Assembly: GCA_030432295.1 (NCBI GenBank)
Contig: JAUIHI010000029.1
Location: 1-64,000 of the forward strand
Source: Anaerolineae bacterium
Lineage (GTDB): Bacteria; Chloroflexota; Anaerolineae; Caldilineales; Caldilineaceae
Reading direction: 5' to 3'
Length of the DNA stretch: 64,000 bases
This document shows, piece by piece, positions 19,099 to 60,157 of the stretch. The position numbers were made by a program, and so were the translations under genes. A model generated the notes under the pieces. That model did no database searches and was not told the DNA's origin. It was given only the letters and a program-made list of their open reading frames with translations. Within the stretch, counting starts at the first letter, position 1. The number at the start of each line of letters is the position of its first letter.

Positions 19099-20093
19099 CA
19101 GCCTTCTCCTTCTTCGTCGGCGCTGTCAGCAGTGGAAGGGATATTGGGTATTGGGTTATCGGGTATTGGCGTTGGCAATGTGAGTGGCGCGTCTGGGAGA
19201 CTTTTGGCTGCGGCCACCCGCAGGGTCTCTTCGTTGGAGCGCTCCACCAGCCAGAAGACCGCAGCCAGGCAGACGCCCGCCATCACCAGAGCCAGCAGCA
19301 GCCCGTTCCAGGGATTGACCGTCAGTCCCGCGCCTGTCATCCGATCTTCCACCAGAAAGAAGAGCCCGTTGAGCAGCGCGGCCAGGGCCAATCCAGCGGG
19401 CAGATAGAAGAGGGGCGTCTTTTCGAAGCGGGCCTGGCCGATAAAATAGCCCAGAATGCCCGCAAAGCTGGCGTGGGCCAGGGCGGTGACAACGACCCGC
19501 ACCGAGCCGATGCCCAGGTCTACCCCGCCGTGTTCCAGCACATAATTGAAGTTGAGCACCGTAGCCATCCCCAACCCCGCGGCGATGGCGTAGATCACCC
19601 CGTCCACCCGCTCGTCAAATTCCGGGTCGGCGTAGATGCCATAGCGCACCACCAGATAGACCACTGCCTCTTCCACAAAGCCCACCAGCAGCACACCGCC
19701 CACCAGTTGGGTGGCGAAGCTGTTGTAGAGCCAGCTATCGATGGCGACGAAGTTTTCCAGAAAGGGGATGGCCACGGCCCCGGCCATCAGCGCGCCCAGG
19801 ACAAAGACGCCGATCAGCTTCTCCTTCGGCTCCGGCTCCAGCCGGTCCATCCGATAGAAGAAGCCCAGCCAGAGGCCGGCTGGCACAAGGCTCATCAGCA
19901 GGCCAAGGAAGATGAGGAAGAAGCCATCCAGCCCATCGCCGATGCGGTCGAAGAGCAGGTTGAAGATGCCCACAAAGAGAAGCAGGCCGACCAGTGCGAT
20001 CAGGCCGGCGATCCAGAAGCCCCGGCGGTTGTGGGCGATGTGTTCCACGTCGGGGTGATAGAATGCGCTGTCCGCGGTGGGTGTGGATTGCAC
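19098..20093 (-). CDS. PrsW-like intramembrane metalloprotease
   Basis: 331 residues with eight or nine hydrophobic segments. The PrsW signatures are YRMDRLEPEPK (80-90), the glutamate pair Glu141-Glu142 in GFVEEAVVYLVVRYG, and HASFAGILGYF further on. In Bacillus PrsW starts cleavage of an anti-sigma factor. Start is GTG at 20093 with AAAGGAGG six bases before. The last about 20 residues (PTPIPDNPIPNIPS) are encoded by an ATATTGGGTATTGG-type repeat, so the tail is repeat-derived. First gene of a five-gene operon. Confidence 0.85.
   Translation of the reverse strand: MQSTPTADSAFYHPDVEHIAHNRRGFWIAGLIALVGLLLFVGIFNLLFDRIGDGLDGFFLIFLGLLMSLVPAGLWLGFFYRMDRLEPEPKEKLIGVFVLGALMAGAVAIPFLENFVAIDSWLYNSFATQLVGGVLLVGFVEEAVVYLVVRYGIYADPEFDERVDGVIYAIAAGLGMATVLNFNYVLEHGGVDLGIGSVRVVVTALAHASFAGILGYFIGQARFEKTPLFYLPAGLALAALLNGLFFLVEDRMTGAGLTVNPWNGLLLALVMAGVCLAAVFWLVERSNEETLRVAAAKSLPDAPLTLPTPIPDNPIPNIPSTADSADEEGEG
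19136..19178. repeat. ATATTGGGTATTGG repeat inside the prsW-like gene
   Basis: gggatattgggtattgggtt and a following gggtattggc lie within the 3' end of the coding region, producing a Pro/Ile/Asn-rich tail. This is a half copy; the complementary arm is absent. Confidence 0.8.
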
Positions 20094-20167
20094 GGACTGC
20101 CTCCTTTGGCTGTGACCGCCGGGGTTGCGGATCGGCGGTCAGGCGGGTGGTTGGTTCAGACGTGCCC

Positions 20168-20176
20168 ATTATACCA
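20168..20176 (-). promoter_or_regulatory. Extended -10 promoter of the PrsW operon
   Basis: On the minus strand TGGTATAAT gives a perfect -10 with the extended TG element. The -35 region is weak. The leader to the GTG start would be about 70 bases. Confidence 0.45.
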
Positions 20177-20279
20177 GAAATGGGCAAAATAGAAACCGTC
20201 GCCACCCATCCCCAAATTGACACCGGTTTCAGGCCGCGTTATGATGGGTGGCGTTGTGGGAGGGAAGTGGCCACTTCAT

Positions 20280-20352
20280 AAGTGACTACTGAGCAGTGAC
20301 CTGCGCCCCCACACGACAACTGTTTACTGATCACCGATTACCGTTTACTACA
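20280..20352. repeat. gagcagtgacc / ctgtttactg repeat
   Basis: agtgactactgagcagtgac and the later aactgtttactgatcacc form an imperfect palindrome upstream of RNase D. The family is also present at 21580 and 52289. Confidence 0.6.
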
Positions 20353-20369
20353 CTGAATCGACCCACCCC

Positions 20370-21581
20370 ATGCCGAAATCCAGATCCAATCGTCCGGTTC
20401 CCTCGAACATTCCCGCGCCCAAGCTCGTTCAGAGCAGCGGGGAATTCGCCGAAATGATGGCCTTTTTGCAGGATCAACCGCTGATCGCGGTGGACACGGA
20501 GAGCGACAGCCTCTACCGCTACCACCCCCGGGTCTGCCTGATTCAGATTTCGGCCTGTGCCAGCGGCTCCGCTGCCCATCCCACCTCGGCGGACCCTATG
20601 CCGACGGTAGACTATCTGCTCGATCCGCTCAAGTTTCACCGTTTGCAGCCCCTGGGCGCACTGCTGGCCGACCCGGCAGTGGAGGTGATTTTCCACGCGG
20701 CGGAGAACGATGTGCGTCTGCTGGATCGGGATTTCAACTTCCGCTGCGCCAATGTCTACGACACCCAACTGGCCGCACGCATTCTGGGCCGCAACGGCGT
20801 TGGACTGGCCGCGATGTTACAGGCAGAATTCGGCGTCATCAGCGACAAGAGTATGCAGCGCACCGATTGGGGCCGCCGTCCCCTCACCGCCCAGCAGATG
20901 ACCTATGCCCAGATCGACACCCACTATCTGCCTGTGCTGCGCCAACGCCAGATTGACAAACTCAAAGCGGCGGACCGCTGGGAAGAAGCCCTGGAAGGTT
21001 TTGCCGCCCTGGCCGAATTGCGCTACGAAGAACCAGCCAAAGAGCGCACTTTCTGGCGGATGAAGCAGACCCGGGAGCTTGAGCGGGAGGATTTGGGGCT
21101 GTTGGAAGAACTGTGGAGCTGGCGGGAGATCACTGCCGAGCGCACGGATCGCCCCCCCTTCAAAGTGCTGTCCGACACTGTGCTGGGCGAATTGGCCCAG
21201 CGCAAACCCACGTCCCTGGCCGAACTGAACGACATTCGGGGCTTCAGTGATCGTCAGGTGAGCCGCTTGGGCCGGGAAGTATTAGAAGCTGTGCGGCTGG
21301 GCCAGGGACGACCCATTCCGCCCCTGCCAGAGCCGACTGTGCGCCCGGAGCAGCTACTCTCGAATCCAGAGCGTGCCCGCTACGATGCCCTGCGCCAGTG
21401 GCGTACAGGCGTGGCCAACGAACGGGGCGTGGACCCGGACATCGTTTTCAACAACGACACACTGCTGCAGATCGCGTCCAAACAGCCAGAATCTGTAGAA
21501 GCCTTGCAGGAGATTGCCGCTATCGGCCCCTGGAAGGCAAAGACCTACGGCGCGGCTGTTTTAGCGATTGCGAATAAATAG
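20370..21581 (+). CDS. rnd: Ribonuclease D
   Basis: 403 residues. The 3'-5' exonuclease domain (about 20-210) has the DEDDy residues: Asp42 and Glu44 in VDTESD, Asp114 in AENDVRLL, and Tyr179...Asp183 in YAQIDTHYL. Two HRDC domains follow (about 225-300 and 325-403), as in E. coli RNase D. It trims 3' ends of tRNA and other stable RNAs. About ten extra residues (ASGSAAHPTSAD) lie between two core strands near 63-76. The ATG at 20370 follows a repeat element and no strong ribosome site is seen. Confidence 0.93.
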   Translation: MPKSRSNRPVPSNIPAPKLVQSSGEFAEMMAFLQDQPLIAVDTESDSLYRYHPRVCLIQISACASGSAAHPTSADPMPTVDYLLDPLKFHRLQPLGALLADPAVEVIFHAAENDVRLLDRDFNFRCANVYDTQLAARILGRNGVGLAAMLQAEFGVISDKSMQRTDWGRRPLTAQQMTYAQIDTHYLPVLRQRQIDKLKAADRWEEALEGFAALAELRYEEPAKERTFWRMKQTRELEREDLGLLEELWSWREITAERTDRPPFKVLSDTVLGELAQRKPTSLAELNDIRGFSDRQVSRLGREVLEAVRLGQGRPIPPLPEPTVRPEQLLSNPERARYDALRQWRTGVANERGVDPDIVFNNDTLLQIASKQPESVEALQEIAAIGPWKAKTYGAAVLAIANK

Positions 21582-21650
21582 TAAGCAGTAATCAGTGACC
21601 AGTGACCCGTCGGATCGTTCGATGCCACTGCTAACTGTTCACTGCTTACT
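21580..21650. repeat. agtaagcagtaatcagtgac palindrome
   Basis: Outer arms agtaagcagt (21580-21589) and actgcttact (21641-21650) are complementary, with inner cagtgac-type repeats. It starts at the stop codon of rnd and fills the gap to the next gene. Confidence 0.75.
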
Positions 21651-21667
21651 TTCCGCTGGAGACGCGA

Positions 21668-22033
21668 ATGAAGCAGATTTTTCTCCTCCTCATCACCGTC
21701 GGCCTGAATGTGGCCGGTCAATATCTGATGAAGCAGGGCATGGGCCAGGTGGGGGTGATCGGTGGCTCGTTGCCTGTGATGGCGAACAGCCTGACCAAAG
21801 CCTTCCTCAACCCCTACGTTATCGGCGGGGTGGGGGCCTATGGCTTCAGCAGCATCTTCTGGCTGATTCTTCTCAGCCGGGTGGAATTGAGCTACGCCTA
21901 TCCTGCGCTCAGCATCGGCTACGTGCTCATCACACTTGTCAGCGCCTTTTTGCTCAACGAGAGTGTCTCGCCCCTACGCTGGCTGGCCGTGGCGGTGATC
22001 TGTGTGGGTGTGATTCTGCTCAGCCGTAGCTAA
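21668..22033 (+). CDS. Small DMT-superfamily permease
   Basis: 121 residues with four hydrophobic helices, a single EamA/SMR-sized unit. The sequence GQYLMKQGM near 17 and SYAYPALSIGYVLITLVSAFLL near 78-100 resemble ArnE/ArnF-type and EmrE-like proteins, which work as dimers. Substrate unknown: undecaprenyl-linked sugars or small drugs are possible. GGAGACG is found before the ATG. Confidence 0.8.
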   Translation: MKQIFLLLITVGLNVAGQYLMKQGMGQVGVIGGSLPVMANSLTKAFLNPYVIGGVGAYGFSSIFWLILLSRVELSYAYPALSIGYVLITLVSAFLLNESVSPLRWLAVAVICVGVILLSRS

Positions 22034-22069
22034 AGACGACGGCAGACGACAAACCGCCGACGGCGGCAG

Positions 22070-24682
22070 ATGGCGGGCGACACCGGGATGTCATCACAAC
22101 GTACAACGTACAACGCACTTCGCTCTGACCTGTGGCTGGATTGTATAGCGGCTCTGTTTCTCGCACTCCTGACCATCGCCTTCTTCTGGCGCACCCTCTC
22201 CGGCGATGTTTTCCAGCCTGCGGATGGCGGCGATCTGGTCAGCTTTCTCTACCCCACCTATCGCTTCGCCGCGGCCACCCTGGCGAACGGCGAACTGCCC
22301 CTGTGGAATCCCACCCTCTACGGCGGCGCGCCTTTCATCGCCGACATTCAGGCGGGCTTTCTCTACCCACCCAATCTGCTCCTCTTTCTGTTCAATCCCG
22401 ACTTTGGCTACGGCTGGATGCAGTGGCTTTCCATCGGCCATCTCTGGTGGGCCGGGCTGGGCGTCTATGCGCTCTGTCGGGTGCTGGGTATCAGCCGCCC
22501 CGCGGCCCTCTTCGCGGGAACGGCCTTCGCCTTCAGCGATCCGCTGCTGATCCATCTGGGCAACCTGAATCTAATCGCTGTCCTCAGTTGGCTGGGCTGG
22601 GTGCTGGCCGCCTTCCATCTGGCACTGACCCGGCGCAGTCTGGCCTGGGCCGGCGCGGCTGGGCTGCTCTTTGCCATTGCCAACTACGCTGGCCACGCGC
22701 AGAGCAGCTATTATATTGGCCTGGCAGTGGCGGGGTATTTGGTATTGGGTAGTGGGTATTGGGTATTGGACGGGGATAGTTCGGGCGTTGACGGGGAGAA
22801 GAGTGGCCGGGGGCGATGGGTTTCCCTAACGAAATATCCAATACCTAATATCCAATACCCACTCATTACCGGCCTAACCGCGATTCTTCTGACCGCCCCC
22901 CTGCTCCTGCCCAGTCTGGAACTGCTGCCCTACACGGCCCGGACGGGGCTGGCCTACCAAGAAAATGTGGGCTATTCCCTGGCCCCGGTCCCTGCGCTGG
23001 TGGGGCTGATCACCCCCGGTTTCTTCGGGCGGGGTCCTTCCCTGCACTGGTCTTTCTGGGATCGGGTGGAGTTGCCCTATGCGGGTGTGGTGGCGCTTCT
23101 GCTGGCGCTGGCGGTCTTCTTTAGAAGTTCGACTTTTGCCAAAAGTCGAACTTCTAAAGAGCGAACCTCTCGTCTGCTGCCCTGGATTGGCCTTGCCCTC
23201 TTTGGACTGCTCGTGGCGCTGGGTGTCTATACGCCTGTCCACGGCTGGTTGACTCAACTCCTGCCCGGCTTCGCTTCCTTCCGCGCCCCCGCGCGGGCAA
23301 TTGTGCTATGGGTTCTGGGGGTGGCTGTGCTGGCAGGCTACGGAGTGGATTGGCTGACGGCAAACGGCAGACCGCAGACCGCATACCACCGACCACCAAC
23401 GACCAACGGAGCACGCAGCACGCAGCACGCAGCACGCAATTCGCAATTCGCCGCCTTCCTCAAATGGGGCGGCCTCGCTCTCCTCGTCGTCTTTGTCCCC
23501 GCGATGTACGCATCTCTCCTCGCCCTGCAAGCCGATTCGGTCTGGTTTCTGCGTGCGTCCTTGGCAGGGCTGGCTGTGGCATTGGCGACGGCTGCCTGGC
23601 TGGGAACCTGGGTGCTGGTCAGCCTCCACAGCCGGGGCCACTTGCGCGGAAATGTCTTTGCCGGGTTGCTCACAGCGCTTCTGCTCATCGAAGTCGGCGC
23701 AGCCGGTGCCTACACGGACATCAGCGAAAGGGACCCGACTCACGGGTTTAACCACCCGGAGATTGTAGAGTTTTTGCAGAAAGAATGGAACGCGGATGAC
23801 GCGGATCGGGCGGATCAGCGCGGATCAGAAAAATCTGCGCCATCAGTTGCTTCTGCGCAATCTGCGTCCTCTGTGAAATCTGCGTTCCCCTTCCGCATCG
23901 ACGCCCGCACAGACATCGACGACCTCTGGCAGCCGGACACCGCCGCGCTGGTCGGTCTGCGCGATGTGTGGGGGATCGTCAATCCCCTGCTCCTCACCCA
24001 CTGGGATCGGCTCTGGGAATCCACCGGCGGACGCCACACCCGGCTCTACGATATGCTCAATGCGGGTTACGTCCTCGTCCGCGACGGCACACCCCTGCCC
24101 AACAAATTCGTCCTGGCCTTCGACGCACCCGGCGAACTGGCCGTCTACCGCAACCCAGACGCCTTCCCCCGGGCCTGGCTGGTGGCCGATGCCCTGATCG
24201 TCCCCGACGCCGACGCCGCCCTGGCCGCCCTCACCGCGCCCGATTTTGACCCATCCCAGACAGTCATTCTTTTCGCTGGCGACGGTGGACGACAGACGGC
24301 AGACGACGGACGAACCGCACCCAATCAACCAATCAACCAATCACCCAATACCCAATACCCAATACCCAATACCGATTCTCCAAACTCCCTTGAATACCAC
24401 ATTTCTTCCCCCACCCCCGCCTACCTCGTCCTCAGCGAAGTCTGGTATCCGGGCTGGCGGGCGACGGTCAACGGCGTGGAGACCCCTGTCCTGCGCGCCA
24501 ACTACGCGCTGCGCGCTGTGGAAGTGCCCGCGGGGGAGGTGACTGTCGAACTCTGGTTTGCACCCGATTCCTGGCGCTGGGGGCTGCGGCTGGCGTGGGT
24601 GGGGGTGGTGCTGTTGCTCGTGATTTGGCTGTTGACCGAACTGCAAGCGTTTCTGCGACGGCTTGAGCCAGCCGAGAGCTAA
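22070..24682 (+). CDS. YfhO-like multi-spanning membrane protein with five repeat insertions
   Basis: 870 residues with about 12 membrane helices and an extracytoplasmic C-terminal domain. The N-terminal part (DGGDLVSFLYPTYRF, ELPLWNPTLYGGAPF, QAGFLYPPNLLLF) matches the YfhO/bacterial GT-C membrane family, thought to add sugars to lipid or surface polymers. Five low-complexity segments encoded by dispersed repeats interrupt it in frame: residues about 222-265, 351-363, 431-460, 573-606 and 739-774. The core reads through all five without a frameshift. The start could also be the second ATG at 22088; neither has a clear ribosome site. Confidence 0.85.
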   Translation: MAGDTGMSSQRTTYNALRSDLWLDCIAALFLALLTIAFFWRTLSGDVFQPADGGDLVSFLYPTYRFAAATLANGELPLWNPTLYGGAPFIADIQAGFLYPPNLLLFLFNPDFGYGWMQWLSIGHLWWAGLGVYALCRVLGISRPAALFAGTAFAFSDPLLIHLGNLNLIAVLSWLGWVLAAFHLALTRRSLAWAGAAGLLFAIANYAGHAQSSYYIGLAVAGYLVLGSGYWVLDGDSSGVDGEKSGRGRWVSLTKYPIPNIQYPLITGLTAILLTAPLLLPSLELLPYTARTGLAYQENVGYSLAPVPALVGLITPGFFGRGPSLHWSFWDRVELPYAGVVALLLALAVFFRSSTFAKSRTSKERTSRLLPWIGLALFGLLVALGVYTPVHGWLTQLLPGFASFRAPARAIVLWVLGVAVLAGYGVDWLTANGRPQTAYHRPPTTNGARSTQHAARNSQFAAFLKWGGLALLVVFVPAMYASLLALQADSVWFLRASLAGLAVALATAAWLGTWVLVSLHSRGHLRGNVFAGLLTALLLIEVGAAGAYTDISERDPTHGFNHPEIVEFLQKEWNADDADRADQRGSEKSAPSVASAQSASSVKSAFPFRIDARTDIDDLWQPDTAALVGLRDVWGIVNPLLLTHWDRLWESTGGRHTRLYDMLNAGYVLVRDGTPLPNKFVLAFDAPGELAVYRNPDAFPRAWLVADALIVPDADAALAALTAPDFDPSQTVILFAGDGGRQTADDGRTAPNQPINQSPNTQYPIPNTDSPNSLEYHISSPTPAYLVLSEVWYPGWRATVNGVETPVLRANYALRAVEVPAGEVTVELWFAPDSWRWGLRLAWVGVVLLLVIWLLTELQAFLRRLEPAES
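22733..22864. repeat. In-gene palindrome 1 (ATATTGGGTATTGG family)
   Basis: Left arm with ggtattgggtagtgggtatt and gggtattgg; right arm atatccaatacctaatatcc plus aatacccac. It encodes GYWVLDG...KYPIPNIQYP between two membrane helices of the YfhO-like protein. Confidence 0.88.
23121..23157. repeat. In-gene palindrome 2 (gaagttcgactttt family)
   Basis: A 17-bp perfect stem, ttagaagttcgactttt (23121-23137) with 23141-23157, and a 3-base loop. It encodes FRSSTFAKSRTSK. Intergenic copies are at 9099 and 56487. Confidence 0.92.
23361..23450. repeat. In-gene repeats 3 (ggcagaccgc and gcacgcagcacgca)
   Basis: The segment joins a gacggcagaccgc-type repeat to agcacgcagcacgcagcacg and aattcgcaattcg. 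It encodes a hydrophilic NGRPQTAYHRPPTTNG stretch and an Ala/Gln/His-rich run between helices. Confidence 0.8.
23787..23885. repeat. In-gene palindrome 4 (acgcggatgacgcggatc)
   Basis: The left arm is rich in gcggat units (acgcggatgacgcggatc), the right arm in atctgcg units (cgcaatctgcgtcctctg). It encodes WNADDADRADQRGSEKS and an Ala/Ser/Val-rich run. Confidence 0.8.
24284..24390. repeat. In-gene repeats 5 (gacggcagacgacgg and aatacccaatacc)
   Basis: A half copy of the gacggcggac family is followed by caatcaaccaatcaacc and a run of four aataccc units. It encodes GGRQTADDGR, an Asn/Gln/Pro run and NTQYPIPNT. Confidence 0.85.
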
Positions 24683-24699
24683 AAACGGCTGGCTCAAGC
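24661..24699 (+). terminator. Hairpin over the stop codon of the YfhO-like gene
   Basis: gcttgagccagccg (24661-24674) pairs perfectly with 24686-24699 around an A-rich loop that contains the stop codon. There is no T-run after it, so its role as terminator is uncertain. Confidence 0.5.
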
Positions 24700-24831
24700 G
24701 TGGAGTCATCATCGGTTCAAAAAGAGTTTTACGAGTTTCATTTTGCCGCCTAAATGATTATACTAAAGATCACGGATTTAGTGTTTGTAGTATCAAGCGG
24801 GTTCTGCGTATATACTCGTAAGGAGACTCCT

Positions 24832-26568
24832 GTGCGTAGTAAGAATCTTTTCGTTCTTTTCATCGGTACTATCACGCTGCTGACCAGTCTTTTCTTCACT
24901 GCCCATGCCCAGGATCCATACCCGATTTATCTGCCGATTGTCATTGGCTCTGGTTCTGATACAACAACCACGCCCACCAGTACACCAACTGCCACACCAA
25001 CACGGGGTGCATTATCTATTTCCGGCTATGTCCAGAAAGGACCGTTTATCCAGGGTACGGAGATCACCGTCCGCGAATTGAACAACAGTCTTGTCCCGAC
25101 TGGGCGCACTTTTACTGGTGTGATTGATGATAATACGGGCAGTTTCACCGTGAATGGGAATTTGGACTATTCCTATGTAGAACTCTCGGCAAATGGCTTT
25201 TATTTCAATGAGATAACTGGAGCACTATCGAACGCTCCAATTACTTTGCTGGCGTTAGTTGACACACAAGATACAACCAGTATCAATGTCAATCTGCTCA
25301 CCCATTTGGAACGTAGACGGGTCGAATATCTGATCGGTCAATCTCTGACCTTTCGCCAAGCAAAAATCCAGGCACAGCAAGAGATACTCAATGCATTTAA
25401 TATTGAAAATGTTGCAATCGGCAATTCTGAAACTCTGGACATCAGCAGAGCAGGAGAAGGCAATGCTGTTTTGCTGGCAATCTCCGCTATCCTTCAAAGC
25501 AACAAGTCAGAAGCCCAACTGACCGAGCTACTTTCCACAATCAGCGGCGATCTACGTACAGATGGTATCCTCAACAGTGCTAGTGTCAAGCAGGCATTAG
25601 TTAACTCCACCGAATTCTTAAAACCACGATGGACTACGATCCGCAGCAACATTGCAGATCGTTATGCAGACCTGGGTATGGAAGTCACCATTCCTGCATT
25701 TGAAGATTTCCTTTTTCGCCTTGACACTGTATCTCCATCTGTCCTCTTTACGCAACCAGGAAGCGAAGATGAATTAGAGGTAGATCATATAACGATTGTT
25801 TTTAATGATTTGATGGATCATGTTAGCTTAAGTAATACTACGATAAGCCTTAAGGATGCTAGTGGAAATCCCGTGGCAAGCACGCTTGAGATTGTCGATG
25901 CAGGTAGTCGCCGCGTCTCGACAATGAGAAGTAATTCTGACTACAACTCCGTTATGCTTATATTTGCAGAAACACCGACACCGACCGCAACATTTACATC
26001 GACACCGACAGAAACGCCGACACCGACAGAAACGCCGATGCCGACAGAAACGCCGATGCCGACAGAAACGCCGATGCCGACACCGACAGAAACGCCGATG
26101 CCGACACCGACAGAAACGCCGATGCCGACACCGACATCGACACCGACACCGACACCCACAGAAACGCCGACATCGACACCGACAGAAACGCCGACATTGA
26201 CACCGACAGAAACGCCGACACCTACAGAAACACCGATACCTACACCTACGCCAACACCTACGCCGGATATCGGTACGGCTACGATTGTTACCCTTATCCC
26301 TGACGCACCTTTGCAACCTGGAACCTATATATTAACCATTGGGACTGATGTAAAGGACTTAGCTGGCAATGGCTTGAATTCAGTGTTCACTGTAAACTTC
26401 ATACATACCTCACAGTCTAGTACTCTATCTTTACCTTCTCACCGGTCAAGGGCCAGACACGAAAACGTTATCAACATGTTTTTCCAATTATGGTCAAGAC
26501 CGCTGCCGATTGGCCCTATCTTGGACACAGAGCGCCTGGCGAAAACAAGATATCTGCCATTCCCCTAA
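24832..26568 (+). CDS. Low-GC surface protein with an Ig-like domain split by a Thr/Pro array
   Basis: 578 residues from GTG at 24832 (AAGGAG six bases upstream; the frame is open earlier). Order: signal peptide ending AHAQ (about 1-27), short Thr/Pro linker, a domain opening [20 protein letters not shown] (about 60-290), then an SbsA-like Ig fold starting [13 protein letters not shown]. That fold is interrupted by about 95 residues of [11 protein letters not shown] repeats and resumes with [14 protein letters not shown] and [14 protein letters not shown] short unrelated tail follows. Base composition is visibly more A/T-rich than the neighbours, suggesting transfer; the KGPF domain recalls secreted proteins of Bacteroidota, from memory only. 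Confidence 0.72.
25967..26262. repeat. acagaaacgccgatgccg microsatellite
   Basis: About 295 bp of 6-, 12- and 18-bp units of ccgaca and gaaacgccgatg encode Thr-Pro-Thr-Glu repeats. The frame is kept throughout. Confidence 0.9.
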
Positions 26569-26589
26569 AGTGGGGAGGCTGGGAGGGGG

Positions 26590-27444
26590 TCATCCCCCAT
26601 ACTTCGGCATCCGCCCAATCATCACCCGATCCCGCAACCGGTCGGGCAGGCGCTCGATCCAGACCCGAATCTGTGTGCTGCGCCCGATGACGTAGCGGAC
26701 TTTGGGCGTGGGCGCGGTCAGCGCGTGATGCACCGCTTCGGCCACATTCTCCACGGGGATGCCCCCGCCTGTGCGTCTGCGCAAGGACGCGAAGAGGGAA
26801 TCGAAGAGCGGGCCGTAGAGCCGCAGGGCTTCCGGAGAATATTGGGGAGCCACCTCCTTGGCAAAGGAGAGCGCCTTACCCCAGATAGGCGTGGCAACGG
26901 TTCCCGGCTGGATGGACGACACCTGAATTCCCCAGGGGTGCAGCTCCAGACGCAAGGCGTCGGTCAACGCTTCCAGCGCGTGTTTGGAGGCCGCATACAG
27001 CCCGATCATCGGCGTAGAACTGAAGCCAGCAATCGAGCTCATCATCACAATCCGCCCCCGCGCCAGGCGCAGCAGGGGGATGAGGGGTTGGGTGACAGCC
27101 AGCTGGCCGGTCACATTCACCTCCAACACCCGGCGCAGTTCGTCCAAATCCACAAATTCCAGCACGCCGCCCGTTGCCATCCCCGCGTTGTTGACCAACC
27201 CGTGCAGGCCGTTATCGCCTACCGCAGCCGTCACCTCTGCGGCCATCGCCGCGATAGATGCGCCGTCGGTCACATCCACTAGCACCGGCGTCAAGCGCTC
27301 CGACGCTTCAACGCTCAAAGCGTTTCCATCCGCCTCTTTGCGCACCCCGGCAAAGACCCGCCAGCCCGCCCGGTCCATCCACAGCGCGCAGGCTTTGCCG
27401 ATGCCGGTAGACGCGCCGGTTATCACTACTGATTTTTGAGTCAC
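26590..27444 (-). CDS. Short-chain dehydrogenase/reductase
   Basis: 284 residues of the SDR superfamily: NAD(P)-binding TGASTGIG (9-16), NNAG, the catalytic Ser in MMSSIAGF and Tyr/Lys in YAASK. The tail (RTQIRVWIERLPDRLRDRVM) resembles the retinol-dehydrogenase/oxidoreductase type with a membrane-binding C-terminus. The substrate is unknown. Start GTG at 27444, with AAGGA about ten bases before. It lies at the end of a minus-strand run of dehydrogenase genes but is separated by a 280-bp repeat region. Confidence 0.88.
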   Translation of the reverse strand: MTQKSVVITGASTGIGKACALWMDRAGWRVFAGVRKEADGNALSVEASERLTPVLVDVTDGASIAAMAAEVTAAVGDNGLHGLVNNAGMATGGVLEFVDLDELRRVLEVNVTGQLAVTQPLIPLLRLARGRIVMMSSIAGFSSTPMIGLYAASKHALEALTDALRLELHPWGIQVSSIQPGTVATPIWGKALSFAKEVAPQYSPEALRLYGPLFDSLFASLRRRTGGGIPVENVAEAVHHALTAPTPKVRYVIGRSTQIRVWIERLPDRLRDRVMIGRMPKYGG

Positions 27445-36782: not shown

Positions 36783-39632
36783 ATGCGACGTACATCCTTT
36801 CTCCACCTGTCAGCACTGCTTTTCTACACATTCCTGGCTCTGCTGCTTACGTGGCCGCTCGTGGTCCATTTCACCACCCACCTCCCCGGCGATGGCATCG
36901 ACGACCCATCCCTGGCCTGGAATCTCTGGTGGATGAAAGCCCGGCTGGTGGATCAACTGAATCTGGACATCTTCCACGCGGATTGGATGTTCTGGCCCAT
37001 CGGAATCAATCTGGGCTTTTATACGCTGACACCGCTCAATGGCCTGCTCAGCGTTCCCCTGCAAACGTCGCTTTCCCTCGTCGTCGCCTCCAATCTGATT
37101 TTGCTTTCGTCGTTTGTGCTGGGCGGCTATGGCACATTCCTGCTCGTCCGTTATTTGTTTGCGAGAGATTGGGGATTGGGGATTGGAGATTCGGCGTCCC
37201 AGTCGCTAGTCGCCAATCTCCAATCCCTCATCCCTATCCTTTCCGGTGTACTCTACGCCTTCGCCTCTTCCAAACTTTTCTACGCCAGCCTGGGGCAGTT
37301 CAACATCGCCAGCAGCCAGTGGATTCCTTTTACTGTTCTCTACGTCCTGCGCACCGGGGAGCGTCGCCGCTGGCAGGACGCTGCCCTGGCCGCGCTCTTT
37401 CTCACCTTCCAGGCCTGGTCAGAACTGACGTATGCTACATTTCTGTTGATATTCATTGGCCTGTATGCGCTTTGGATATTGGGTATTGGATATTTCTCCC
37501 AAAGAATCCATTTGAAATTCAAAATTCACTATTCACCCCTTCGACAGGCTCAGGACAGCGCATTCACTATTTTCTTTTTATTTGCTTTTATCGGCCTTCT
37601 CTTCGCTGTCGGTATCGCGCCTTTCCTGTGGGCAATGCTGCCGGATATGCGTGTGGAGGGTGACTTCTTCACCAGCGGTGGCGGCTTCTCCGACATCTTC
37701 AGCGCAGATCTGCTGGGCTATCTCGCGCCTACCCGTCTGCATCCCTGGCTGGGGGAATGGGTTGCGTCTCTGTCCTTCCCCAACGACAAAGGCCAGCACA
37801 TTTTCATCGGCTACAGCGCGCTCCTGCTGGCCGGGGTGGGGACTGTTCATCTGTTGCGCCGTCAACGCTGGCAGGGACTCTTCTGGCCGCTGACGACTTT
37901 TGTTTTCTGGCTGCTGACCCTCGGCCCGGTGATTCGCGTTGTGGGTCAGCCGACCGCCATTCCTGGTCCCTTTGCACTGGTCAGCCTGCTGCCCTTTTTC
38001 AACGGCAATCGCTACCCCAGCCGTTACAGTGTAATGCTGATGCTGGGGGTGGCGGTATTGGCTGGATACGGGATATTGGGTATTGGGTATTGGCTGGGGA
38101 AGCGAAGGCGCGTAATATCCAATACCCAATACCCAATATCCGTCCTCCTCATATCCTCCTCATTTCTCGCTATCTTCCTTCTCGAACATCTCTCCGTCCC
38201 GCTGCCACTGAATGATTTTCGCATCCCGGCGATTTACCAGACAATCGCGGCTGAGCCGGGCGATTTCGCTGTGCTGGAACTGCCCACAGGCTGGCGCAAT
38301 GGCGCGCGGGTGATGGGGCGATCCGATGTGCTGATTATGATGGAGGAGTGGTATCAGACCGCCCACGGCAAGCGGCTGCTGGGGGGCAATACCAGCCGCA
38401 ACCCGGCCTATAAGTTTCAGTACTTCACCGACGCACCGCTGATCGGCGATCTGATTGGGCTGATGAACGCAGACCAGTCCCACATCGCCCCGGTGGTGGA
38501 GAGCGAATGGGACGCACTGGTAGCCCGCAACCGGGCCAGCAGTCCGGCGGTGCTGGACTTTCTGGATGTGGGTTTTGTGCTGGTTCACGTGGAAAAATCG
38601 ACGCCCCAATTGTTGCGCTTTGTGGAAGAAACGCTGCCCGTCTCTCTGGTCGAGGAGTGGCGCGGGCCGGATTGGACCGGCGCGGATTCTACGATTCGTC
38701 TCTATCGAGTGGCAGATCGGGCTACGCCGACGGAGTGGACAATCGAACCGGCTACAGCGGCAGGCCGTCTCTACCTGGCCGAGGGCTGGTCGTCGTTGGA
38801 TGTAGGCGGGCGCATCCGCTATGCCAAGCGCACAGAACCGTCGCTGCTGTTGGATATTCCTACAACGGGGGGCGCGTTGACTTTTGATGTCTACGGTCCA
38901 GCCCGGCTGGCAGGGCTACGGCTGAATGGCGCGTCTATCGATTGGGTGGCGGGTCCTCTGGCTGGGGCGCGCCAGGAAATCAGCGCCACAGTGCCGCCAG
39001 GGGTTGCGGATGGGCCAGTGGACCGGTTGACGCTGGAATTCACAAATACGCCGTGGAGCAGTCTGTACATCGACTTCCCCACAAAAGAGATCGGCCAGCC
39101 TGTGGGCGAAACCGGCACATTTCTGCCGCCGGGTCACGGCATTGTGGCCGTCAGCGCGGGGGAGGAGGTGGGAGATTTTGCCCACATCTATCTGACCAAC
39201 CGGGCTTTTGTGGGCGAAGATGTGGCCCTGGGCGAGCGGGGCTACAATCTGATCGCCGTCAATGGGGAAGGCGATCTTTTGGCCCAGGCCGCGTTTGACA
39301 TTCTGGGCGATGCGGGCCAATCGTCGGCGATGGCTGAATGGATCACTCGCTGGCCGAAGGGGACTGTTATCGCTGGGGCGGTCAATGACGAGGCGAGCAT
39401 CAATTTGGGCCAGGATGCGGTCGATGCATTGGCTCGGTTGGGGGTTGCCACAGACCTGCGCGGGCGTTTCCGCTGGAGCCACGCGTTTGTGGGTGTGGCG
39501 GGTGCGGAAAATGCCACAGCCAGAGAAGACGCTGCGCTTCTGCGTCCTGCTCTGGCTGTGGTGGGTATGCCGGTTGATGGGCCAGCTATCTTCGGCGGGG
39601 TAGGGCGGCTACATTTTGTTGCGTACCCCTAG
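36783..39632 (+). CDS. Multi-spanning membrane protein with C-terminal ILEI-like domain
   Basis: 949 residues. The first about 480 residues have 11 or so membrane helices in a GT-C-like arrangement (HLPGDGIDDPSLAWNLWW near 33). A soluble domain follows (about 480-790). The last about 125 residues (RGYNLIAVN, VNDEASINL, RWSHAFVGVAGA) fit the ILEI/FAM3 fold known from animal FAM3 and POMGNT1. Three repeat-derived segments are inserted in frame at residues about 128-151, 230-262 and 430-453. A role in surface glycan assembly is likely but inferred. Possibly translated from a leaderless mRNA. Confidence 0.78.
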   Translation: MRRTSFLHLSALLFYTFLALLLTWPLVVHFTTHLPGDGIDDPSLAWNLWWMKARLVDQLNLDIFHADWMFWPIGINLGFYTLTPLNGLLSVPLQTSLSLVVASNLILLSSFVLGGYGTFLLVRYLFARDWGLGIGDSASQSLVANLQSLIPILSGVLYAFASSKLFYASLGQFNIASSQWIPFTVLYVLRTGERRRWQDAALAALFLTFQAWSELTYATFLLIFIGLYALWILGIGYFSQRIHLKFKIHYSPLRQAQDSAFTIFFLFAFIGLLFAVGIAPFLWAMLPDMRVEGDFFTSGGGFSDIFSADLLGYLAPTRLHPWLGEWVASLSFPNDKGQHIFIGYSALLLAGVGTVHLLRRQRWQGLFWPLTTFVFWLLTLGPVIRVVGQPTAIPGPFALVSLLPFFNGNRYPSRYSVMLMLGVAVLAGYGILGIGYWLGKRRRVISNTQYPISVLLISSSFLAIFLLEHLSVPLPLNDFRIPAIYQTIAAEPGDFAVLELPTGWRNGARVMGRSDVLIMMEEWYQTAHGKRLLGGNTSRNPAYKFQYFTDAPLIGDLIGLMNADQSHIAPVVESEWDALVARNRASSPAVLDFLDVGFVLVHVEKSTPQLLRFVEETLPVSLVEEWRGPDWTGADSTIRLYRVADRATPTEWTIEPATAAGRLYLAEGWSSLDVGGRIRYAKRTEPSLLLDIPTTGGALTFDVYGPARLAGLRLNGASIDWVAGPLAGARQEISATVPPGVADGPVDRLTLEFTNTPWSSLYIDFPTKEIGQPVGETGTFLPPGHGIVAVSAGEEVGDFAHIYLTNRAFVGEDVALGERGYNLIAVNGEGDLLAQAAFDILGDAGQSSAMAEWITRWPKGTVIAGAVNDEASINLGQDAVDALARLGVATDLRGRFRWSHAFVGVAGAENATAREDAALLRPALAVVGMPVDGPAIFGGVGRLHFVAYP
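37166..37235. repeat. In-gene palindrome (gattggggattgg)
   Basis: Left gattggggattggggattgg, right cgccaatctccaatccc. It encodes WGLGIGD...VANLQSLIP between helices. Related half copies lie at 13208 and in 56220-56280. Confidence 0.82.
37471..37570. repeat. In-gene repeats (ATATTGGG and attcactattcac types)
   Basis: ttggatattgggtattggat is followed by aaattcaaaattcactattc and a ttcgacaggctcaggacagc stretch. The product is LGIGYFSQRIHLKFKIHYSP plus about ten residues. Confidence 0.72.
38071..38141. repeat. In-gene perfect palindrome (ATATTGGGTATTGG family)
   Basis: A 23-bp perfect inverted repeat (38071-38093 with 38119-38141; arm begins ggatattgggtattgggt) and a 25-base loop. It encodes GILGIGYWLG and ISNTQYPISVL at a helix border. 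Confidence 0.95.
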
Positions 39633-58159: not shown

Positions 58160-58936
58160 GTGAAAATAGCAGTGCTGATCAAACAGACGCCGGACACCGC
58201 CGAACTGCCGAAAGTCTCGGTGGCCGAGGCCCAGTCCGGCGAAATCAAAGCCACGATGGTCATCAACCCCTGGGACGAGTACGCAGCGGAAGAGGCCATC
58301 GACCTTTGCGACCGTTTCGACGGTGATTCCGTCGCTGTCTCTCTGGGCAAGGACGGCGAAATCGACGCGCTCAAACACGCGCTGGCCATGGGCGTGGGTG
58401 AGGCCGTGTTGGTGGATGAGAGTCTGGTGGCCGGTGGCGACGAGTGGGCCACCGCTTCTGCTCTGGCTGAAGCTGTCAAGGCCCAGGGCGATGTGGAGAT
58501 TGTCCTGGCGGGCAAAATGTCTGTGGACGGCAACAGCGGCGTCGTCTTCGCCGGGGTGGCCTGCAAGCTGGGCTGGGACCTGCTGGTCAATGTGACCAAA
58601 ATTGTGGATGTGTCCAACGGAAAAGTGACCGTCGAGCAGGTCTTTGAGGGCGGCCAGGAGACAGTTGAAGTCCCCCTGCCCGTCGTTATCAGCGTGGCCA
58701 AAGAGATCAACGACCCCCGCTATCCCAGTTTTATGGGCATTCGCAAGGCGGGCCGGGCCAAAATTCCGACACTGGGCGCGGGCGATCTGAACGTTCCCGC
58801 CAGCCAGACGGTGGCCTGGGGTAATCTGCGCAAACCCGAAGAGCGCAAGAGTGCGGTGCAGATTCTCGACGGCGCGACAGTGCAGGAAAAAGCGGCCCAA
58901 CTGGTGGACGCACTGCTGGCGGAAAAAGTTATTTGA
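58160..58936 (+). CDS. etfB: Electron transfer flavoprotein beta subunit
   Basis: 258 residues. KIAVLIKQTPDTAE, WDEYAAEEAIDL and the GVACKLGW region are typical EtfB. With EtfA it carries electrons from acyl-CoA dehydrogenases to the quinone pool. GTG at 58160 after GAGGA. Confidence 0.95.
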   Translation: MKIAVLIKQTPDTAELPKVSVAEAQSGEIKATMVINPWDEYAAEEAIDLCDRFDGDSVAVSLGKDGEIDALKHALAMGVGEAVLVDESLVAGGDEWATASALAEAVKAQGDVEIVLAGKMSVDGNSGVVFAGVACKLGWDLLVNVTKIVDVSNGKVTVEQVFEGGQETVEVPLPVVISVAKEINDPRYPSFMGIRKAGRAKIPTLGAGDLNVPASQTVAWGNLRKPEERKSAVQILDGATVQEKAAQLVDALLAEKVI

Positions 58937-60129: not shown

Positions 60130-60157
60130 GAAAACGGACGGCAGACCGCGGACGACG

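Follow-up and report, generated by a model that had tools for sequence, protein, structure and literature searches.

A YfhO-like membrane-protein gene in a 64,000-nucleotide stretch of an Anaerolineae bacterium genome (Chloroflexota; Caldilineaceae; GenBank assembly GCA_030432295.1, contig JAUIHI010000029.1; hereafter the window) was found to carry five in-frame segments made of repeat DNA, copies of which lie both in and between other genes. The presence of these repeat-derived segments in the gene is confirmed. The assembly totals 6.7 Mb in 61 contigs, and the window lies on contig C27; its own genome is designated G000, and other G numbers denote the genomes of relatives. The nearest named relatives are Caldilineaceae metagenome-assembled genomes (ACE_CHL8, two bins labelled Litorilinea aerophila, CHL15, and Ww71), and sister species stand at roughly 70–90% protein identity.

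Five repeat-derived segments in a YfhO-like gene

The open reading frame (ORF) runs uninterrupted over its full length of 870 aa. Pfam YfhO matches its C-terminus with an E-value of 1.4e-6, slightly under the family's cut-off. The AlphaFold model of the 870-aa protein has a mean predicted local distance difference test score (pLDDT) of 82.5, and its top Foldseek matches were the GT-C glycosyltransferases AftD, ArnT, and oligosaccharyltransferase (OST). The gene and the repeats within it are as follows.

22070–24682, + strand: YfhO-like polytopic membrane protein, 870 aa, predicted GT-C-like fold (ORF, Pfam, AlphaFold, Foldseek)
22096–22115, + strand: array of ACAACGT heptamers within the first codons of the gene
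22733–22866, + strand: segment 1, aa 222–266; GGGTATT heptamer array, spacer, and inverted AATACCC array; hairpin
23118–23160, + strand: segment 2, aa 350–364; perfect 21+21 bp palindrome, TCTTTAGAAGTTCGACTTTTG/CAAAAGTCGAACTTCTAAAGA
23356–23455, + strand: segment 3, aa 429–462; GACCGCA, ACGCAGC, and CGCAATT heptamers in a head-to-tail mosaic; non-hairpin
23785–23888, + strand: segment 4, aa 572–607; CGCGGAT-type repeats with an inverted ATCTGCG arm; hairpin
24276–24376, + strand: segment 5, aa 736–769; GACGACA/GACGGCA, CCAATCAA, and ACCCAAT arrays head to tail; non-hairpin

An earlier note on this DNA had placed insertions of several unrelated repeat families at 22733, 23121, 23361, 23787, and 24284, positions that correspond to the five segments, which start at 22733, 23118, 23356, 23785, and 24276 and do belong to differing families. 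Its claim that they match intergenic repeats also stands: every segment has copies elsewhere, and within the window some of these fall outside predicted genes, at 58930, 56484, 10020, and 14631 (segments 1 to 4 in turn) and at 60136 and 28785 (segment 5). Genome-wide counts come from a sample of 1.65 Mb (25% of this genome, with 968 predicted genes); genes were called there with a simple purpose-written caller, on which the split between in-gene and outside counts depends. In this sample, segments 1 to 5 recurred at 46, 36, 13, 28, and 63 further places, both in and outside predicted genes. A loose search returned about 49 copies of the segment-2 palindrome family, and among 71 copies from two genomes the arms of the family showed compensatory changes between loci, with 16 compensated cells compared with 1.8 expected and a maximum of 9 in 2000 shuffles.

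All five segments fall in loops of the AlphaFold model, as had been proposed. The low-pLDDT stretches at residues 231–240, 429–433, 586–598, and 733–761 (model numbering, to which 7 is to be added) correspond to segments 1, 3, 4, and 5; the segment 1 loop comes after model helix 203–224 and has a pLDDT of 54–63, and the segment 5 region scores 34–44. Alignment of 13 orthologues revealed conserved protein sequence again downstream of each segment, bearing out the claim that the frame is kept, and the N-terminus holding the ACAACGT array was not conserved among orthologues. RNA folding compared with shuffled sequences indicated strong hairpins at segments 1 (z −5.6), 2 (z −7.3), and 4 (z −4.9). 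A scan of positions 20000–27000 for known RNA families detected none.

Repeats in and between genes across the genome

The sample contained 85 period-7 arrays with a score of at least 13, compared with 1 after shuffling, and 351 inverted repeats with arms of at least 15, compared with 0. At a score of at least 12, 102 period-7 arrays in 37 classes were catalogued, 61 in predicted genes and 41 outside (47 and 115 per Mb, respectively); AATACCC alone accounted for 12 of them. Only 26 of the 351 inverted repeats were clearly internal to predicted genes. Intact hairpins are thus strongly depleted from genes, whereas heptamer arrays are depleted only mildly. Neighboring similar arrays no more than 150 bp apart were inverted in 11 cases and direct in none, compared with 327 and 303 among random pairs. 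The hairpin families of the genome include the GGTATT type and AAGTTCGACTT. Across genomes, a threefold CCCAATM word was present in 10 of 61 genomes and 4 of 41 genera, at 0 to 240 copies per genome.

Arrays of period 7 or 8 were internal to 39 of the 968 predicted genes (~4%). Genes for polytopic membrane proteins were over-represented among them, with an odds ratio of 4.4 (p 7e-4), or 5.5 among genes of at least 400 aa. Four YfhO-family loci were found in the genome, each with five to seven arrays; the paralogs at C54:133702 and C49:18659 carry as many arrays as the window gene, so the earlier picture of one exceptional gene has to be given up. A further multi-array membrane gene lies in the window, with an in-frame GGTATT-type hairpin at 38070–38141.

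36783–39632, + strand: second multi-array membrane gene, 949 aa, five arrays, C-terminal ILEI domain

Array-bearing genes also included those for HMG-CoA reductase (HMGR), TrpF, HisC, PriA, alanine racemase (array upstream of the first domain), a thiamine pyrophosphate (TPP) enzyme, a MenE-like ligase, and the E2 component of a 2-oxoacid dehydrogenase (array in its linker). Compared with solved structures, HMGR, TrpF, and HisC have 18, 13, and about 16 extra in-frame residues at the repeat, and the MenE-like ligase has a replacement with zero net gain relative to a solved relative. Apart from the extra residues, HMGR, TrpF, and HisC are recognizable end to end, suggesting that they are probably still functional.

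On the sense strand, 59 of the 61 arrays in genes were free of stop codons, and intergenic arrays were mostly stop-free as well. Selection of the families for being stop-free in all six frames was considered for the hairpins and found no support (6 of 26 in genes and 52 of 298 between genes, p 0.43). Repeats as the source of most coding indels were not supported either: in 42 G000–G005 ortholog pairs, most indels of at least 3 aa lacked 7-bp periodicity.

Genes for Y1 transposases (Y1_Tnp) are present in the genome, at least two of them within clusters of GTAG-tagged repeats. The genes L249 (C39:90912–91235) and L251 (C38:6828–7184) are flanked by GTAGGTGCGGTTT...AACCGCAC and GTAGGTTGGGT repeats in a REPtron-like arrangement. 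The GTAG tag was found in the GTAGGTGCGGTTT...AACCGCAC and GTAGGGGCGC families; inspection by eye revealed no consistent GTAG tag in the five window segments, and no Y1_Tnp gene was observed with the GGTATT heptamer element at its flanks. Presence of Y1_Tnp was not supported as a predictor of the heptamer word, most carriers lacking it.

Other repetitive sequence was noted in passing. At 25972–26264 of the window, a long 18/24-bp repeat encodes a PTPTETPTP linker in the predicted protein 24754–26568; this is a standard triplet-phase repeat and differs from the heptamers. At 1–542, a 126-bp tandem repeat, apparently encoding 42-aa TPR-like units, is truncated by the window edge. In the sequence used for G000, about 10 kb (C52:60252–70220) consists of N, inflating one predicted ORF.

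Repeat turnover between sister species

Compared with the repeat-poor orthologs in G003 and G007, the length at each YfhO site differs by a net −4 to +22 aa only. Less was gained than the repeat-derived stretches contain, so part of the loop sequence was replaced. The five sites are variable loops in all homologs. The segments are absent from distant homologs, a check that the earlier note had proposed, yet the loops vary and the boundaries are unclean, so the clean insertion boundaries it had envisaged were not recovered. Most segments are common to G000, G004, G005, and G006, segment 2 being missing in G006, and the same-genus genomes G001 and G003 are mostly without repeats, site 1 excepted. 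Because of this sharing, the YfhO-like gene was not hit only recently in this strain, and most segments are older than the split of several sister species. The suggestion of active or recent spread holds as spread and turnover between sister species, but not as a recent event confined to this strain.

The repeat family at a given loop varies between species. At YfhO site 4, a GACGGC-type hairpin in G004 takes the place of CGCGGAT in G000, G005, and G006. In other genera the same loops carry CCCAATC (G020, sites 3 and 4), AATCTTC (L059, site 1), or AATTTTC (L074, site 1). The HisC loop hairpin is GGGGACT/CCCAATC in G001 and G006, TATTGG/CCCAATA in G004, and GCGAACG/CGCCAAT in G002; the repeat is missing in G003 and in other genera, and the HMGR site is empty in G005. 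Pairing of the arms within species exceeded pairing after swapping between species, the observed value being reached in 1 of 720 permutations for TrpF and 18 of 720 for HisC. Within the genus, one loop thus carries different repeat families, at times with both hairpin arms changed together. With sister species holding different repeat families in one and the same surface loop, repeat DNA is evidently rewriting these parts of the proteins.

Several intergenic length differences between G000 and G005 were made up of repeat elements, and 12 sister length differences inspected revealed no consistent target duplication. At C54:177331 of G000, the corresponding region of G005 (C12) has about 121 extra bp of a GCAGATT-type element inside a heptamer-hairpin loop, as if one element had inserted into another. 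YfhO orthologs from Anaerolineae outside the family (L082, L086, and L091) have heptamer arrays of their own in a different inter-helix loop, near window residue ~189.

Origin of the segments and relation to known repeats

We consider it moderately likely that small hairpin and heptamer elements disperse, survive in genes where reading frame and fold tolerate them, and then turn over in place. The genome holds many families of small repeats (~35–150 bp), many with hairpin arms of tandem heptamers or octamers; these would disperse by a hairpin-dependent process, which may be single-strand transposition by Y1 or REP-associated tyrosine (RAYT) transposases, or template switching during replication. 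Purifying selection would leave in genes only frame-keeping copies in loops and linkers, and resident arrays would keep changing through slippage, arm copying, or arrival of new elements, producing different repeat families in one loop across species. Several results weigh against this reading. Segments 3 (z +1.75) and 5 (z +1.73) fold no better than shuffled sequences and are not hairpins; no target-site duplication or clean empty site was found at the in-gene positions; 34 of 46 relatives, mostly genomes without the heptamer word, have Y1_Tnp genes; and co-change of the arms is weak or suggestive at YfhO sites 1 and 4 (4 of 24 permutations each) and absent at HMGR, where 22 of 24 permutations reached the observed value. 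A serious rival is slippage combined with template switching, and both processes may operate together. In its pure form, nothing moves: arrays grow in place like microsatellites in length-tolerant loops, arms arise by template switching, and the 7-bp register and composition are favored. The excess of heptamers in bacteria has been ascribed to slippage (PMC4692102, PMC4679880), and clustering of the arrays in loops that vary across all homologs, differences in unit identity at one site between sisters, and the unclean boundaries would all be expected. We nevertheless hold in situ growth to be unlikely as the whole account, since the same few words, AATACCC among them, dominate unrelated genes and intergenic DNA, several loci share a GGTATT element whose inner edges read TTTCG...CGAAA, and non-tandem palindromes such as segment 2 behave alike, in tens of copies.

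Retention of the segments for a function, either as mRNA hairpins or G-rich arms that tune translation or as hydrophilic, variable surface loops under positive selection, would accord with the enrichment in polytopic membrane genes, the strong predicted mRNA hairpins at three sites, and the sharing of segments by sister species. We regard it as improbable, however: the carriers include unrelated enzymes, two of the five sites lack structure, peptide content tracks the resident repeat family, and the same site may be filled in some sisters and empty in others, as for HMGR in G005 and HisC in G003. The translated repeat peptides are most likely tolerated fillers rather than selected functions. 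Misplacement of intergenic repeats into the gene by misassembly or misbinning has to be considered, repeats being classic assembly traps and the named relatives being metagenome-assembled; it is very improbable, as independent assemblies from several projects (G001, G004, G005, and G006) agree on the sites of the repeats, which are in frame and lie between stretches of conserved protein sequence.

In-frame repeats as such are known: they occur within genes as Rickettsia palindromic elements (RPEs) and as repetitive extragenic palindromes (REPs) of O. terrae, R. conorii, and others, some genes having two (PMC3733652). RPEs are described in review as stem-loops of 105–146 bp with terminal inverted repeats (PMC2229807). 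The likeness to RPEs, drawn from their descriptions, lies in palindromic repeats found between genes and in frame within working, often housekeeping, genes, with several families per genome. The proposed Rickettsia-like behavior was thus upheld for in-frame genic and intergenic copies, but of the five segments only three are palindromic and two are not; many arms here consist of tandem heptamers, the host belongs to the Caldilineaceae, and the families at one site differ between sister species. GTAG/CGTC REPs and REPINs with RAYT (PMC3733652, PMC3116915) are also small hairpins with in-frame intragenic copies, sometimes two per gene, and in the present genome, too, Y1_Tnp genes lie among GTAG-tagged REPs; the heptamer elements, however, appear by eye to lack a consistent anatomy of GTAG plus short stem, and no link between them and a transposase gene was seen.

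The heptamer arrays described so far are chiefly intergenic (PMC4692102, PMC4679880). Short tandemly repeated repetitive (STRR)-type heptamers of cyanobacteria and Xanthomonas and TAACTGA repeats share 7-bp units such as GGGGATT, for which inverted pairs are reported (PMC4692102), and the tandem 7-bp units in many dispersed copies catalogued here resemble them. Here, by contrast, the arrays are not mainly non-coding, about 60% of strong arrays lying in predicted genes, mostly internally. Bacterial miniature inverted-repeat transposable elements with open frames (ERIC and the 107-bp form of Correia; PMC2229807) are likewise small mobile elements fused in frame with genes, but no terminal inverted repeats with TA target duplication were found here. 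The system would work in the manner of RPEs and intragenic REPs, a likeness of behavior and not necessarily of kinship. Within the open-licence literature searched, what appears new is the combination of heptamer-armed hairpins and mosaics, several families per gene, many housekeeping genes, a Chloroflexota host, and sister species that differ in the family occupying a fixed loop.

Most known cases of in-frame repeat insertion come from Rickettsia and a handful of REP-rich bacteria; in the Chloroflexota genome studied here, about 4% of the sampled predicted genes are affected. Annotators of these proteomes should be aware that NPQSPIPNP, IGYWVLGIG, DGGRQTADGG, RSTQHAARNSQFA, and similar peptides represent translated repeats. 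The system allows testing of how hairpin repeats spread without an obvious transposase and how two arms change jointly, and the sister species offer a natural time series for how noncoding repeats become protein sequence. It is possible, though doubtful, that translated hairpin elements evolve in concert, with fixed loops acting as permanent docking sites that exchange families between species while the arms are rewritten jointly; if so, repeat DNA rather than point mutation would set loop sequence in these lineages.
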